A program made the position numbers and the translations under genes. Shown here in pieces: positions 204 to 6,248 of a DNA stretch of 6,459 nucleotides; positions within the stretch are counted from its first letter, which is position 1, and the number at the start of each line of letters is the position of its first letter. The stretch comes from a bacterium (GTDB taxonomy: Bacteria > SZUA-182 > DTGQ01): positions 1-6,459 of the forward strand of contig JAILZY010000140.1 in NCBI GenBank assembly GCA_023512255.1, given 5' to 3'. The notes beneath the pieces were generated by a model. It ran no database searches and was not told the origin of the DNA. It saw only the letters and a program-made list of their open reading frames with translations.

Positions 204-3200
204 ATGAAAATTTATGAATTGCTTGATTCAGAAAAAATCCTCTGCTTATCCAAGGTGGAGAATCAGCAAGATCTTTTCTCCCGCCTGGTTCCCTCATCAC
301 TTGCTCTCAACGGCAAGGGGAGCATTACCCAGGAGGAGATAATCCAGCAGCTTATGGATAGGGAAGCGATTTCCTCAACCGGAATTGGCAACGGCATTGC
401 TATCCCTCACATCCGGCTCGATGGGCTCAAGGAGCCTGTAGTCAGACTGGCTATTGTGAAAGAAGGGCTTCAGTTCAATGCTATTGATGGTAAGCCCTGC
501 AAGATATTCTTCTTGTTCATCACCCCCAGTGATCAGACAAGTACCCATTTGCAGATTCTGGCCAAGATATCGAGCCTTTTGGGAAGCGAAAAACTTCGCT
601 CACGCCTTGAAAAGGCCGACTCGCCGAAAAGCATATATCAGATCCTGGTGGATGAGGAGAATAAGGGGAAGTATGGGTATATCAATCTTGATAAAAAAAG
701 CATTTTTGAGGAGCTTCAGACCTCAGAGAATGGGCTAAGGCAAGAGGAGGCCAAGAGAAGGCTTGAGGTTTATGGTCCTAATGTTTTGAAAAAAATCAAA
801 AAGAAACCCACCTATGTAAAGCTTTTGAAAAATTTTATTTCCCTCTTTGCTATCCTTCTTTGGGTTGGCGGAGGGCTGTGTTTCATTCCCGGGGTGGATA
901 TGCCGCAACTTGGCTGGGCTATCTTTGGGGTTATTATAATTAATGCTGTTTTCTCATTCTGGCAGGAATTTAAGGCTGAGCGAGCGATCGAGGCTCTGCA
1001 GAAGCTGCTTCCTCAAAAATCTACTGTTTTGCGTAGCGGTCAAAAGGTTGAGATTCTGGCCTCAGAGCTTGTGCCAGGTGATATTATCTTTCTTGAGGAG
1101 GGAGACAGTATCCCGGTTGATGCTCGGCTGATCGAATCCCATGAGATGAGGGTCAATAATGCGGCCCTGACCGGAGAATCACGGCCTATTTATAAAATGT
1201 CTGAGCCGATTGAGGATGGAGCGGTCCTATTGTGGACCGAGCTGCCGAATATGGTTTTTGCCGGAACTTCGGTAACCTCAGGCAGCGGACGGGGAGTGGT
1301 CATTGGCACTGGGATGAATACGGAAATCGGCAAGATTGCCCACATGACCCAATCAGTGGAAAAAGAGCTGAGCCCGCTTCAGAAAGAAATGCACAAGATG
1401 GTCAATATCATCTCTTTTCTGGCGGTTGGCATGGGCATTATCTTTTTCTTTCTGGGCAAGAGCCTAGGAGGTCTTTCTCTAATCGGTGCCTTCATCTTTA
1501 CCATCGGCATTGTTGTCGCTAACATCCCCGAGGGACTTCTGCCTACGGTTTCCCTAGCTCTGGCTATGGGGGTTCAGCGGATGGCCAAGCGAAACGTGCT
1601 GATCAAGCAGCTTTCCTCAGTTGAAACCCTGGGCTGCACTAATGTCATCTGCACGGATAAGACTGGTACCCTGACGACCAACCAGATCAGTGTCTCCAAG
1701 ATTTTTATCAACCAGAGGCTGATCAGTGTTAGCGGCACCTCTTATGAGCCGAAGGGAGAATTCCACGATGAGCAGGGCAGGCTGATTAACCCTTCTGATC
1801 TTTGGCAGGATCCTACCTGTCGGATGTTTTTTACCTCATCTGTGCTGTGCAATAATGCCCATCTTCTCTCCCCAGGTTCAGAGACAAATTACTGGAGGAT
1901 TATGGGGGATCCAACTGAGGGTTCGCTCATTGTCCTGGCTCGGAAAGCTGGGGTTGATATCGAGGCTCTGGCTGCTGATTATCAGCGGGTCGGACATCTG
2001 CCTTTCGAGTCGATCCGAAAGCGAATGTCTACCATTAATCAAACCAAGGATGGCCGAAAGTTTGCTTTCACTAAGGGAGCACCCCTTGAGACTTTGGCCC
2101 AATGTGATTCGATCCTCATCAATGGCCGAAAAGAGAAGCTGACCCCACAGATTCGCCAGTCGATTATTCGTCAAAATGATCTGTTTGCCCGAGAAGGGTT
2201 CAGGGTACTGGCTGTGGCCTACCGTGAGGATCAGGAGCTTTCGGCACTCTCTTATTACAGCAATGAAAAGGTTGAATGCTCCCTCACCTTTCTGGCCCTA
2301 GTGGCTATGATCGACCCACCCCGAGCTGAGGTGCCCAAGGCCATTGCCGACTGTCGAACCGCGGGAATCAGGGTCATCATGATTACCGGAGACTATGGTC
2401 TGACCGCCAAATCCATCGCTCATAAAATCGGCATGATAGAAAATCCTGACGAGGTTACGGTTATTACCGGCCATGAGTTGGCGGAGATGGATGATCAGAA
2501 ATTGAAGGCTATTCTCAAGCAGCCTGTGATCTTTGCCCGAATGTCTCCTGACCAGAAAATGCGCATCGTCTCCTGTCTGAAAGAGGAAGGGTATATCGTG
2601 GCTGTAACTGGAGATGGGGTCAATGATGCTCCGGCTCTGAAAAAAGCAGACATTGGCGTGGCTCTTGGGATGCACGCCAATGATGTGGCCAAGGAAGCAG
2701 CTAATATGATTATCACCGATGACAATTTTGCCAGTATTGTAGCTGGTATTGAAGAGGGTAGGGCAGTTTATGCCAACATCAAGCGGTTTGTAACCTATAT
2801 TTTCGCCAGTAACGTGCCGGAGATTGTGCCCTTTATCCTCTTTGTTTTGTTCAAAATTCCTCTTCCCCTGACAGTCATGCAGATCCTGGCTGTGGATTTG
2901 GGCACAGACCTTGTGCCAGCCCTTGGCCTCGGAGTGGAGGCTCCTGAGCCAGGTACCATGAGCCGTCCGCCAAGACCGCAAAATGAGCGCATGATTAATA
3001 CCAAACTGTTCTTGAGAGCCTATGGATTTTTGGGCATGATCGAAGCCATTTTATGCATGCTGGGCTACTATTTTATATATTGGACCCATGGCCTGAGCTG
3101 GGGAACACTTATTCCGCCGGCAAACAATCCAGCCTATGTCTACCCGGATGGAGCGGTCTATATCATGGCTACAACCATGTGCCTGGCTGGTATCGTTACT

Positions 3201-3635
3201 GCCCAGGTTGGAAATGTTTTCTGCTGCCGGACCGAGCAAGAGTCGATTTTCAAGGTGGGACTGCTGAGCAATAAACTTGTCCTAGTTGGAATTATAACCG
3301 AAATCACCCTTATCCTCCTATTTATTTATAGCCCTTTCTTCCAGAAAATTTTTGGTCTTGCTCCTATAGGCTTGAAGGAGTGGGCGCTTCTGGCTACCTT
3401 TGGCCCGATCATTCTGATTCTTGAAGAGGGGAGAAAATGGTTGCTAAGGCGGCGACAGAAGAAACTCTCTCCGGCGAGGGCAAGGAAAATTGCTGAAGAA
3501 CCTAAGCCTTCCTATCTCAGTCAACAATCCCTAACTCCTAGGAGTAGAGAGCAAGAGCTGACAGCGAAGTCAGCCGATCTTGCGACGATTGGAAGCCTGG
3601 GGAGTAAGAAAACTGCACATCATGAGGAGCAATAA
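204..3635 (+). CDS. PTS EIIA-domain / Na+,K+-ATPase-like P-type cation pump fusion
   Basis: Predicted inner-membrane ATP-driven cation pump with a phosphotransferase-type regulatory domain at its N-terminus. Residues about 5-150 match PtsN/fructose EIIA, with GIGNGIAIPH and active-site H69, plus the conserved second histidine H115. From about 160 comes a full P2-type ATPase: N-terminal cation ATPase segment, M1-M2 (about 211-256), TGES 323-326, M3-M4 (400-455) with PEGL 442-445, phosphorylated D485 in DKTGT, KGAP 624-627, DPPR 704-707, TGD 728-730, TGDGVNDAP 802-810, and M5-M10. VANIPEGLL, SNVPE (869-873) and DLGTD (898-902) resemble the Na+,K+-ATPase (P2C) rather than the SERCA pattern. A hydrophilic tail of about 59 residues (1085-1143) ends the protein. 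All catalytic motifs are present. The transported ion is inferred, not shown; a K+/Na+ or Ca2+ role is possible. Control by PTS phosphorylation is inference. Confidence 0.93.
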   Translation: MKIYELLDSEKILCLSKVENQQDLFSRLVPSSLALNGKGSITQEEIIQQLMDREAISSTGIGNGIAIPHIRLDGLKEPVVRLAIVKEGLQFNAIDGKPCKIFFLFITPSDQTSTHLQILAKISSLLGSEKLRSRLEKADSPKSIYQILVDEENKGKYGYINLDKKSIFEELQTSENGLRQEEAKRRLEVYGPNVLKKIKKKPTYVKLLKNFISLFAILLWVGGGLCFIPGVDMPQLGWAIFGVIIINAVFSFWQEFKAERAIEALQKLLPQKSTVLRSGQKVEILASELVPGDIIFLEEGDSIPVDARLIESHEMRVNNAALTGESRPIYKMSEPIEDGAVLLWTELPNMVFAGTSVTSGSGRGVVIGTGMNTEIGKIAHMTQSVEKELSPLQKEMHKMVNIISFLAVGMGIIFFFLGKSLGGLSLIGAFIFTIGIVVANIPEGLLPTVSLALAMGVQRMAKRNVLIKQLSSVETLGCTNVICTDKTGTLTTNQISVSKIFINQRLISVSGTSYEPKGEFHDEQGRLINPSDLWQDPTCRMFFTSSVLCNNAHLLSPGSETNYWRIMGDPTEGSLIVLARKAGVDIEALAADYQRVGHLPFESIRKRMSTINQTKDGRKFAFTKGAPLETLAQCDSILINGRKEKLTPQIRQSIIRQNDLFAREGFRVLAVAYREDQELSALSYYSNEKVECSLTFLALVAMIDPPRAEVPKAIADCRTAGIRVIMITGDYGLTAKSIAHKIGMIENPDEVTVITGHELAEMDDQKLKAILKQPVIFARMSPDQKMRIVSCLKEEGYIVAVTGDGVNDAPALKKADIGVALGMHANDVAKEAANMIITDDNFASIVAGIEEGRAVYANIKRFVTYIFASNVPEIVPFILFVLFKIPLPLTVMQILAVDLGTDLVPALGLGVEAPEPGTMSRPPRPQNERMINTKLFLRAYGFLGMIEAILCMLGYYFIYWTHGLSWGTLIPPANNPAYVYPDGAVYIMATTMCLAGIVTAQVGNVFCCRTEQESIFKVGLLSNKLVLVGIITEITLILLFIYSPFFQKIFGLAPIGLKEWALLATFGPIILILEEGRKWLLRRRQKKLSPARARKIAEEPKPSYLSQQSLTPRSREQELTAKSADLATIGSLGSKKTAHHEEQ

Positions 3636-3681
3636 ACCGGTGTGTCAACAAAAGGAGCAATAAAACTGGTGTGTCAACAAA
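3625..3681 (+). repeat. Tandem duplication spanning the ATPase stop codon
   Basis: Two adjacent units, 28 bases (3625-3652) and 29 bases (3653-3681), both start AGGAGCAATAAA and end GGTGTGTCAACAAA. They differ by one inserted A and one C/T change. The first unit contains the last codons and TAA of the ATPase gene, so the end of the coding sequence has been copied into the spacer. The second copy carries AAGGAG followed by a 14-codon GTG reading frame (3669-3713), which I do not call as a gene. Confidence 0.85.
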
Positions 3682-3706: not shown

Positions 3707-3745
3707 AGAATAGAAGCGATAGAAGCGATGGACAGAATAGAAGCG
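3707..3745 (+). repeat. Short repeats straddling the HAD gene start
   Basis: AGAATAGAAGCG occurs at 3707-3718 and again at 3734-3745, the second copy inside the coding sequence. AGAAGCGAT is tandemly repeated at 3712-3720 and 3721-3729, ending in the first two bases of the start codon. In the HAD frame the upstream copy would read R-I-E-A, the same as residues 3-6 of the protein, so the 5' end of the gene appears to have been duplicated into its leader. Confidence 0.75.
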
Positions 3746-4393
3746 CTGGTGAGGCAAAAGTGCAAGGCTGTATTGTTCGATATGGATGGGGTTATTGTCC
3801 ATACCATGCCGGATCATTTTCGTGCCTGGCAAAAGGTCTTGGAGTCGATCGGCATTCAGGTCGATGAATTTGAAATCTATGCCCGTGAGGGAGAGCCGGG
3901 CATGGTAACTCTGTCAGAGCTTTTGGCCAAGTATGGGAAGAAGTTGCCCCAAGAGCAGATGCGCCGCCTCGTTCAGTGGAAAGAGAGCCTGTTTAAGCAG
4001 ATCGCCTCGCCTCGGTTGTTTTCCGGGGTTGAAGATTTCATTAGCCAGCTAAAAAACCAAGGCTACCGGCTGGCGCTGGTTACCGGAACCTCAAAGAATG
4101 AGGTAGATTCTATTCTTCCGTCCAGGGTGGCTGATCTCTTTGAGGTGGTGATTACCCCAGAGCTGGTTAGCCGGGGAAAGCCGGCTCCGGATCCTTATCT
4201 TGCGGCCTTAGATAAGCTTGGTCTTAAGCCCGATGAGGCGCTGGTGATTGAGAATGCTCCCTACGGGATCCGCTCAGCCAAGGGGGCAGGCTTGGTGTGC
4301 ATAGCCGTAGCCACTTCTTTGCCTAGGGAATACCTCCAGGATGCAGACCTGATTTTCGACTCCATAGAGGAGTTAAGGAAACTCTTTCCGTAA
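3728..4393 (+). CDS. HAD-superfamily phosphatase / beta-phosphoglucomutase-like hydrolase
   Basis: Cytoplasmic HAD subfamily I hydrolase of 221 residues, normal for the family. Motif I is FDMDG, with nucleophile D18 and acid/base D20; motif II is the T119 of LVTGTS; motif III is K151 in GKPAPDPY; motif IV is E175-N176 in VIENAPYGI. A helical cap (about 25-95) sits between motifs I and II, as in beta-phosphoglucomutase and small sugar-phosphate phosphatases. Motif IV has Asn where beta-phosphoglucomutase has Asp, and H25 replaces the Asp often found after the motif I loop, so I do not assign mutase activity. The substrate is unknown. The gene follows the ATPase by 92 bases with no clear terminator, so co-transcription is possible. 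No Shine-Dalgarno sequence precedes the ATG. It is the only ATG upstream of motif I in this open frame, which begins after a TAA at 3701; GTG at 3749 is the alternative. Confidence 0.87.
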   Translation: MDRIEALVRQKCKAVLFDMDGVIVHTMPDHFRAWQKVLESIGIQVDEFEIYAREGEPGMVTLSELLAKYGKKLPQEQMRRLVQWKESLFKQIASPRLFSGVEDFISQLKNQGYRLALVTGTSKNEVDSILPSRVADLFEVVITPELVSRGKPAPDPYLAALDKLGLKPDEALVIENAPYGIRSAKGAGLVCIAVATSLPREYLQDADLIFDSIEELRKLFP

Positions 4394-4402
4394 ATATTCG
4401 GG

Positions 4403-4534
4403 TCGCTCTTATATCAGACACCATAAACCCTATATCAGAACAACCATAAAATATCAGAACAACCATAAACCATTGAAGGGGCTTAGCTCTTATTAGGGTT
4501 ATGTCTCTCAATGGCAGCTAATAAATAAGAGCGA
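4403..4534. repeat. Nested inverted repeats with the GCTCTTAT motif
   Basis: TCGCTCTTAT (4403-4412) is the exact inverse of ATAAGAGCGA (4525-4534). Inside it, CCATTGA (4470-4476) is the inverse of TCAATGG (4508-4514). GCTCTTATTAG (4486-4496) is the inverse of 4518-4532 apart from a 4-base insertion. These arms compete for the same right-hand partner, so alternative folds are possible. The motif recurs at 5671-5690. Confidence 0.55.
4411..4469 (+). repeat. 19-base tandem repeat downstream of the HAD gene
   Basis: ATATCAGAACAACCATAAA occurs twice back to back without a mismatch (4432-4450 and 4451-4469). A shortened 17-base copy lies just before them (4411-4427), separated by CCCT. The copies are non-coding and untranslated in context. 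Confidence 0.85.
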
Positions 4535-4610: not shown

Positions 4611-4693
4611 ATTATAGAGCCTGTATAAGCCTGTATAAATTATGTATAAATAATAGAGCCTGTATAGATTGCCTGTATAGATTATAGAGCCTG
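4611..4693 (+). repeat. Imperfect GCCTGTATA repeat cluster downstream of epmA
   Basis: GCCTGTATA occurs at 4619, 4629, 4658 and 4671, with a degenerate ATGTATAAA between them at 4642. ATTATAGAGCCTG at 4611-4623 is repeated exactly at 4681-4693, and TAGAGCCTGTATA is at 4615-4627 and 4654-4666. The cluster ends about 10 bases from the epmA stop codon. Repeat spacing is irregular and there are no conserved unique spacers, which excludes CRISPR. Confidence 0.75.
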
Positions 4694-4703
4694 CGCTTAC
4701 ACA

Positions 4704-5600
4704 CTATACCTGCGGCAGGGGAAAAGCCATGACCTGTGAGATCTGTTCGGCTCCGGTGAGGGTCATAAGCAGGCGATCAACTCCCAGGGCGGCTCCGGCA
4801 CAGTCTGGTAGGAGTCCCTTTTCCAGCACTGAGAGAAAATGCTGATCCAGGGGATAAGGCTCTTTGTTCATGGCGATCCGCCGAGCACGATCCCGCTCAA
4901 ACCGCTCTCGCTGCTCCCGAGCGCAGGTTAGCTCGGAAAAGCCGTTGACTATTTCCACTCCCTTGAGGTAGAGCTCAAATCTTTCGCTCAGCTTCGGATC
5001 TTGGGGTTTCAACCTGGCCAGGCTAGCCATTGGAGCAGGAAAATCATAGAGAAAAAAGGCCGGCATATCTTGTAAGGCTGGCTCGACCTGCTCGATCAGG
5101 TCAAGGAAAAATCGCTCTTCATTCCATTCCCTGGAAGGACACCAGCCAGCGTGCTGTTCAAAGGCCTCATCGACTGAAATTCGGGCAAAAGGCAAGGAGA
5201 AAAGAGGTTTTCTGTCTAGGTACTCAGCCATCTGCCTGTCTACGGTTTGAATGAGGTTTTCCGTCAACTCCATCAGATCTTGGTAATTTATCCCTGTCTC
5301 ATACCACTCCAAAATTGAGAATTCGCAGTTGTGGTATTTCCCTATCTCATCAGAGCGGAAGGCATGGGTAAGCTGATAGATTTTTTTCAGGCCGCAGCCA
5401 AGCAGCCGCTTCATGTGAAGCTCGGGCGAAGTAGCTAGGTAAAAGCTCTCTCCGGCGGCAATAGCGTCAATATGGGGATCTATGCCCGGACAGCGGACCA
5501 AAACAGGAGTGAAAACCTCCACGTAGCCCCGCTGGTCAAAAAAGCCACGAATCGCTCGTCCCAGATGATGTCGAAGGTAATGCATTTCGGGCTGGATCAT
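4704..5600 (-). CDS. epmA: EF-P--lysine ligase EpmA (PoxA/GenX)
   Basis: Cytoplasmic paralogue of the class II lysyl-tRNA synthetase catalytic core. It activates lysine or (R)-beta-lysine with ATP and attaches it to the conserved lysine of EF-P. The 298 residues lack the tRNA anticodon-binding domain, as expected. Motif 1 is around P32 (VFTPVL), motif 2 is FRSDE...EFSILEWY with R82, and motif 3 is ALGVDRL with R276. A271 in motif 3 aligns with E. coli EpmA A298, where canonical LysRS has Gly; this Ala is tied to substrate choice. The gene lies 84 bases downstream of efp on the same strand, its substrate gene. ATG at 5600 is chosen because an in-frame TGA stands at 5604-5606. No clear Shine-Dalgarno sequence is visible, and ATG at 5585 is a shorter alternative. 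The aminomutase gene epmB is absent from the window. Confidence 0.95.
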   Translation of the reverse strand: MIQPEMHYLRHHLGRAIRGFFDQRGYVEVFTPVLVRCPGIDPHIDAIAAGESFYLATSPELHMKRLLGCGLKKIYQLTHAFRSDEIGKYHNCEFSILEWYETGINYQDLMELTENLIQTVDRQMAEYLDRKPLFSLPFARISVDEAFEQHAGWCPSREWNEERFFLDLIEQVEPALQDMPAFFLYDFPAPMASLARLKPQDPKLSERFELYLKGVEIVNGFSELTCAREQRERFERDRARRIAMNKEPYPLDQHFLSVLEKGLLPDCAGAALGVDRLLMTLTGAEQISQVMAFPLPQV

Positions 5601-5670: not shown

Positions 5671-5690
5671 GCTCTTATTAGCTCTTATTT
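5671..5690. repeat. 10-base tandem repeat at the efp stop codon
   Basis: GCTCTTATTA (5671-5680) is followed directly by GCTCTTATTT (5681-5690). The efp stop codon (minus-strand TAA, 5685-5687) lies within the second unit. The same GCTCTTATT core is found at 4486-4494 and, inverted, at 4524-4532 in the central gap. Confidence 0.8.
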
Positions 5691-6248
5691 TTTCGCCCGC
5701 TCAACATATTGTCCGGTCCGGGTATCGACCACGATCCTATCTCCGTTATTGACAAAGATTGGCACTTGAATCCTGGCGCCGGTATTCATAATAGCCGGCT
5801 TATTGCCTCCGGTAACCGTATCTCCCTTAAAGCCAGGCTCGGTCTCAACCACCTCAAGCTCTACAAAATTAGGCAGGTTGATGGCAATTGGTCGATTGTT
5901 GAAAAAGAGCACATTAACCTCGAGATTTTCAATCAGGTAATCCTTAGCCTCTCCAACTTGGGATTCCTCCATTTCGATCTGTTCGTAGTTTTCCGTATTC
6001 ATAAAATGATACATGCCATCCTGAGCATAGAGAAATTGCATGGGGTGCTCTTCCAGCTGGGCAGGCTCAAGCTTTTCACCCGACTTGTAGGTCCGATCGA
6101 GAACATTTCCAGTAATCATATTCTTCAGCCTGGTTCTGGTAAAGGCATTCCCTTTGCCAGGCTTGACGAATTGAAAATCAACGACAATATACGGCTCTCC
6201 GTCTATTTGAATTTTTAGGTTCTTTCTAATATCACTAACTTCGTACAT
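5685..6248 (-). CDS. efp: Elongation factor P
   Basis: EF-P binds between the P and E sites of stalled ribosomes and promotes peptide bond formation at consecutive prolines. The protein has 187 residues (E. coli 188) and all three beta-barrel domains, about 1-63, 64-127 and 128-187. The domain I loop reads FVKPGKGNAF; K32 corresponds to E. coli K34, the residue lysylated by EpmA. The domain III signature K-x-A-x4-G-x2-I-x-V-P is intact at 150-169. The start at 6248 is supported by AAAGGG ten bases upstream and by the normal N-terminus. It is followed by epmA on the same strand, so modifier and target are probably made from one transcript. A Lys-type loop next to epmA argues for the lysylation branch rather than the Arg-rhamnose (EarP) branch. 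Confidence 0.97.
   Translation of the reverse strand: MYEVSDIRKNLKIQIDGEPYIVVDFQFVKPGKGNAFTRTRLKNMITGNVLDRTYKSGEKLEPAQLEEHPMQFLYAQDGMYHFMNTENYEQIEMEESQVGEAKDYLIENLEVNVLFFNNRPIAINLPNFVELEVVETEPGFKGDTVTGGNKPAIMNTGARIQVPIFVNNGDRIVVDTRTGQYVERAKK

Follow-up and report, generated by a model that had tools for sequence, protein, structure and literature searches.

Two described systems are close to the gene analyzed here. LacS, a GPH symporter of streptococci and lactobacilli, has an EIIA-type domain covalently attached to the transporter; according to excerpts of a 2023 review, this domain is phosphorylated by HPr, and no bacterial transporter other than LacS is under direct control by phosphorylation (PMC10710835). 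The second system is PtsN (EIIA-Ntr) of Escherichia coli, the phosphorylation state of which controls monovalent-cation transport (PMC11808508; excerpts of PMC13104625). Unphosphorylated PtsN inhibits the K+/H+ antiporter YcgO (PMC11808508), and excerpts of a review on PTS-Ntr report its action on TrkA and KdpD as well as conflicting models in E. coli for EIIA regulation of K+/Na+ transport (PMC13104625). A protein joining EIIA to a P-type pump is not mentioned in the excerpts of that review, nor in those of reviews on P-type ATPases (PMC10654040) and on transporter control (PMC10710835). We found no description of such an architecture in the open-licence literature, and it may have been noticed elsewhere.

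The DNA stretch studied here (6,459 nt; hereafter, the window) is contig C169 of the draft genome G000 (3.83 Mb in 172 contigs). Positions 204–3635 of the forward strand form one continuous frame of 1143 aa with an ATG start and no internal stop codon, in which the initial annotation had seen an EIIA domain fused to a P-type pump. This reading was borne out: the Pfam domains of both parts are complete within the frame, and the fusion is present in a congener (G001; same full-length architecture with 87% identity over residues 1–1089 of the window protein), in the genome G179 (53% identity over residues 8–1081), and at many other loci. The N-terminal EIIA domain (PTS_EIIA_2, Ntr/fructose type; residues 1–152, positions 204–659) was assigned from PF00359 (residues 6–148, 104.7 bits against a cut-off of 27 in the Pfam search with the whole protein), structure matches, invariant residues, and an AlphaFold2 model. 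A linker (residues 153–161, positions 660–686), with pLDDT below 50 at residues 155–160, leads to the P2-type cation-pumping ATPase (residues 162–1085, positions 687–3458), in which Cation_ATPase_N (162–225), E1-E2_ATPase (267–463), Cation_ATPase (547–637), Hydrolase (682–816), and Cation_ATPase_C (886–1080) all exceed their Pfam cut-offs. The C-terminal tail (residues 1086–1143 and the stop codon, positions 3459–3635) is unconserved and is predicted to be disordered (pLDDT below 50 at 1090–1143); the tail of the congener is shorter and different. In the model of the whole fusion (mean pLDDT 79.4, pTM 0.67), the EIIA domain (block pLDDT mostly 73–91) and the pump are ordered on either side of the break at the linker, and the spacing from EIIA to pump is nearly constant (35–38 residues) in the 14 fusions compared.

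Downstream of the fusion, positions 3728–4393 (+) encode a HAD phosphatase (beta-PGM/inorganic diphosphatase-like; HAD_2, 107.6 bits), which is a possible operon partner. A HAD phosphatase gene lies 3' of the fusion in both species of the genus, and in the congener the homologue directly follows and overlaps it. Short imperfect direct tandem repeats of 19–31 bp occupy intergenic sites around the HAD gene (3625–3681, 4410–4471, and 4628–4693). The window also encodes an EpmA-type EF-P lysine ligase (4704–5600, minus strand; TIGR00462 above cut-off) beside EF-P (5685–6248, minus strand), an ordinary pairing. An Rfam search of the window gave no match.

The pump scored 308.7 bits with the P-type ATPase model TIGR01494 (cut-off 62.3), and D485 (codon GAT, 1656–1658), the phosphorylated residue in CTDKTGTLT, is invariant in an alignment of 48 rows; the P-type core is complete, as had been claimed. 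The top sequence and Foldseek matches, including the best PDB entry, are Na+,K+- and H+,K+-ATPases, with SPCA, SERCA, and LMCA1 nearly tied with them in the VIA-align list. The best NCBIfam model is TIGR01106 (Na+,K+/H+,K+-ATPase alpha, P2C), yet its score of 668.9 lies below the cut-off of 946.1, and several members of the pump clade scored highest with a PMR1-type Ca2+ model, likewise below cut-off. The family is most aptly described as a prokaryotic P2 clade intermediate between P2A and P2C.

At the cation site, the window clade matches Na+,K+-ATPase at PEGLL (M4), SN.PE (M5), DLGTD (M6), Q (M8), and E (M9). In the numbering of pig Na+,K+-ATPase, residues E327, S775, N776, E779, D804, D808, Q923, and E954 are conserved, whereas the window pump carries T774A and D926N, and T772 is also replaced. 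The label "Na+,K+-ATPase-like" in the initial annotation therefore holds for nearest kinship and for most site residues, but not for membership of the TIGR01106 family or for T774 and D926. Because the replaced D926 is presumably part of the third Na+ site, a stoichiometry of 3 Na+ : 2 K+ should not be assumed for this pump.

A second fused clade, of Omnitrophota type (L046–L052, L056, L078, L082, and L119), has AHL.PE in M5, DLGTE in M6, and often PQGL in M4, and this pattern is partly common to unfused pumps of Bacillota and Actinomycetota. Because of these site residues, the ions of the second clade may differ, possibly with an undescribed specificity. Among four of its loci (L047, L051, L052, and L056), H+-pyrophosphatase genes adjoin the fused pump at three, two of which have ExbB/ExbD upstream, and TrkH is found at one. 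Further neighbors in this clade are CstA and an SBF transporter. These neighbors would fit a function in the homeostasis of ions and energy.

The solved structures nearest to the EIIA part are all PtsN/EIIA-Ntr (1a6j, 3urr, 4gqx, and 2a0j). With the PtsN/EIIA-Ntr equivalog model TIGR01419 it scored 81.8 bits, below the cut-off of 138.7, and it may act like EIIA-Ntr though it is not filed as PtsN. H69 (codon CAC, 408–410, within GIAIPH) and H115 (codon CAT, 546–548) lie where the initial annotation had placed them and align to the phosphoryl-accepting and second active-site histidines of PtsN. Across 25 aligned fusions, the only invariant positions of the EIIA part are H69, P108, and H115, indicating that selection in the fused domain acts to retain the phosphoryl-accepting histidine together with its partner at the active site. 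Two further fusions, L160 and L178, also keep both histidines. In one subclade (L163–L168 and L170–L173), AIPH has become AIFH or AILH with both active-site histidines present in all members. Since the motif proline and other canonical positions are gone from this eroded subclade, canonical docking of HPr cannot be assumed for every fusion. The canonical motif is retained in the window protein, its congener, and L169 (PHAR in L169).

The regulatory reading of the initial annotation depended on EI/HPr-type genes, and EI, HPr, HPrK, and PtsN are all encoded in the genome of the window. They lie on contig C75 in the order rpoN-hpf-ptsN-hprK-EIIAman-EIIBman-glycosidase-EIICman-EIIDman-HPr-EI, where the names rpoN and hpf were given by eye from the sequence. 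With a second EI homologue (G000, C117:5130–5501, minus strand; 580-aa frame) in addition to that of the PTS cluster, the genome has two EIs alongside HPr, HPrK, its separate PtsN, and an EII of the mannose type. PF02378 was absent from 14 genomes searched. A purely regulatory PTS without a permease, considered on that ground, was rejected for the window's own genome, where the mannose-type EIIB/C/D are present. HPr and EI were found in 13 of the 14 fusion genomes searched. In the other one, G179, a ptsN-hprK-rapZ-EIIAman cluster meets N runs and a contig start where the downstream PTS genes are expected, and G179 was dropped as a candidate for a natural PTS-free case. EI was present in 15 of 35 genomes with unfused relatives, and the excess in fusion genomes (Fisher p 0.0014; 0.012 after thinning of near-duplicates) is uncorrected for phylogeny.

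These results suggest that HPr~P probably phosphorylates H69 and thereby changes pump activity in cis. The protein would be an ATP-driven monovalent-cation pump whose N-terminal domain, an EIIA-Ntr-type phosphoreceiver, has a regulatory role; this domain would lie on the cytosolic side, joined by a short, flexible linker immediately ahead of the actuator end of the pump. Phosphate would pass from PEP via EI and HPr to H69 of the fused domain, H115 would assist at the active site, and EIIA would touch the cytosolic domains of the pump depending on phosphorylation. As for the direction of control, we tentatively propose, by analogy with YcgO, that unphosphorylated EIIA might restrain the pump and that phosphorylation in a PEP-rich state would release it. 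The transported ions may be Na+ or H+ outward and K+ inward. Unfused relatives (~50–58% identity) evidently manage without EIIA, which counts against a switch in cis. A wider reading, which we place a little short of an even chance, is that the fusions represent an undescribed and widespread family of primary cation pumps controlled in cis by PTS histidine phosphorylation, in which PEP/pyruvate and carbon state directly set ion pumping, and in which the same EIIA serves at least two ion-site types (Na,K-like SN.PE/DLGTD and AHL.PE/DLGTE) and was remodelled around the retained histidine pair in one subclade.

Alternatively, the fused EIIA may be a docking or dimerization platform for the separate PtsN, for HPr-Ser-P/HprK, or for the HAD protein, so that its phosphorylation has no direct action on the tethered pump. 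The presence of HprK and PtsN in the same genome, the HAD gene adjacent to the fusion in two species, and partner binding as a common mode of EIIA proteins (excerpts of PMC13104625) speak for such control in trans, whereas the near-constant spacing between EIIA and pump and the repeated retention of the fusion suggest action in cis; we consider the platform unlikely. It is also rather improbable that the histidine pair is kept for a role outside the PTS, such as metal or ion sensing or acceptance of phosphate from a non-PTS donor. This would suit at least the eroded subclade, as the histidine pair persists in 25 of 25 fusions despite the change of AIPH to AIFH or AILH, but it fits poorly with the canonical motif of the window protein, the congener, and L169, and with the presence of EI and HPr in 13 of the 14 fusion genomes searched. 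That EIIA is a passive or decaying passenger is very improbable. Unfused relatives do exist and some fused EIIAs are highly diverged, but the active-site histidines are invariant even across the diverged sequences, and dN/dS (NG86) between the two congeners is ~0.13 for EIIA and ~0.06 for the ATPase, showing that purifying selection acts on the EIIA segment between these species. Finally, although the window is an entire short contig of a draft assembly, we see practically no chance of a frame error or chimeric assembly of two genes, which the initial annotation had named as fatal to the fusion, because the same architecture recurs across several phyla in genomes that were assembled independently, two of them as single contigs (G865 and G918).

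The EIIA-pump fusion is thus real, and neither chance nor error, and our preferred reading is phosphorylation of H69 by HPr~P with control in cis. At least 27 fused homologues were found in all, nearly all from draft or metagenome-derived genomes. When 84,980 species genomes were scanned, more full fusions turned up in MAGs with the labels Omnitrophota, Planctomycetota/Phycisphaerae, Fibrobacter, Marinifilum, and unclassified bacteria, so that the fusion-bearing groups include Omnitrophota, Planctomycetota, Fibrobacterota, and others. The fusion occurred in 3 of 386 genomes of a broad sample, in 4 of 285 genomes of an Omnitrophota sample (L160 and three that are also among the fusions above), and in 13 of the 395 genomes sampled from the G179 phylum (G179, 11 more, and L178 in G865, which was added through inspection of long frames). 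The architecture is rare and patchy, but it is recurrent rather than unique and is kept in many uncultured bacteria. N-terminal extensions in G1075, G980, G989, G1000, G184, and G254 had no EIIA match. L062, considered as an unfused member of the Omnitrophota-type clade, was rejected, as its frame starts at a contig end.

In the free tree, the two fused clades were placed inside the pump family. An AU test did not reject a single fused clade (p 0.33, or 0.74 once sequences were added), and in the larger set the constrained tree was 16.5 log units better than the free one. The tree of EIIA alone is too poorly resolved to decide between one and two origins.

EIIA domains were also found on other proteins. 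The genome of the window encodes an amino acid permease of the APC family that carries PTS_EIIA_2, with its AIPH histidine intact, at the C-terminus (L004:1474–3306, minus strand, contig C164), and a Fibrobacter MAG (G390) has a 764-aa frame with EIIA and a Na+/H+ exchanger domain (L143). As EIIA is attached to both in the same genome set, it seems to serve as a module that can be added to different transporters; these two resemble the window fusion in carrying PTS_EIIA_2 on a transporter but are secondary transporters. A further frame of the window's genome (L003:435–1244, minus strand, contig C32) has EIIA ahead of a zinc ribbon of the C4 type (PF02591), with the second active-site histidine changed to F.

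Among solved structures, the animal Na+,K+-ATPase/H+,K+-ATPase alpha subunits (P2C) are nearest to the pump in both sequence and fold and share the M4–M6, M8, and M9 residues given above, but the window pump differs from them in T774 and D926, in its score with TIGR01106, and in the added EIIA domain. The unfused prokaryotic relatives (Actinomycetota, Chloroflexota, Bacillota, and Thermodesulfobacteriota; L045 is 58% identical) belong to the same pump clade, many with a similar cation site, but are without EIIA. E. coli PtsN is of the same EIIA class, but it is a separate protein that acts in trans, and its partners YcgO, TrkA, and KdpD are not pumps of this kind. If our reading is true, the fusion would offer a clean one-protein test of EIIA regulation of K+/Na+ transport and would link ion gradients to carbon and energy state within a single protein chain; it would also be the first case of direct phosphorylation control in a primary cation pump. 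LacS is the only documented bacterial analogue that we found for this apparently uncharacterised fusion, and the mechanism may be LacS-like. The window protein is not of the LacS type, as its EIIA is of the PF00359 type and its transporter is a P-type ATPase: LacS joins an EIIA-Glc-like domain, presumably at the C-terminus, to a secondary sugar transporter, whereas here a PTS_EIIA_2/Ntr domain is joined at the N-terminus to an ATP-driven cation pump.
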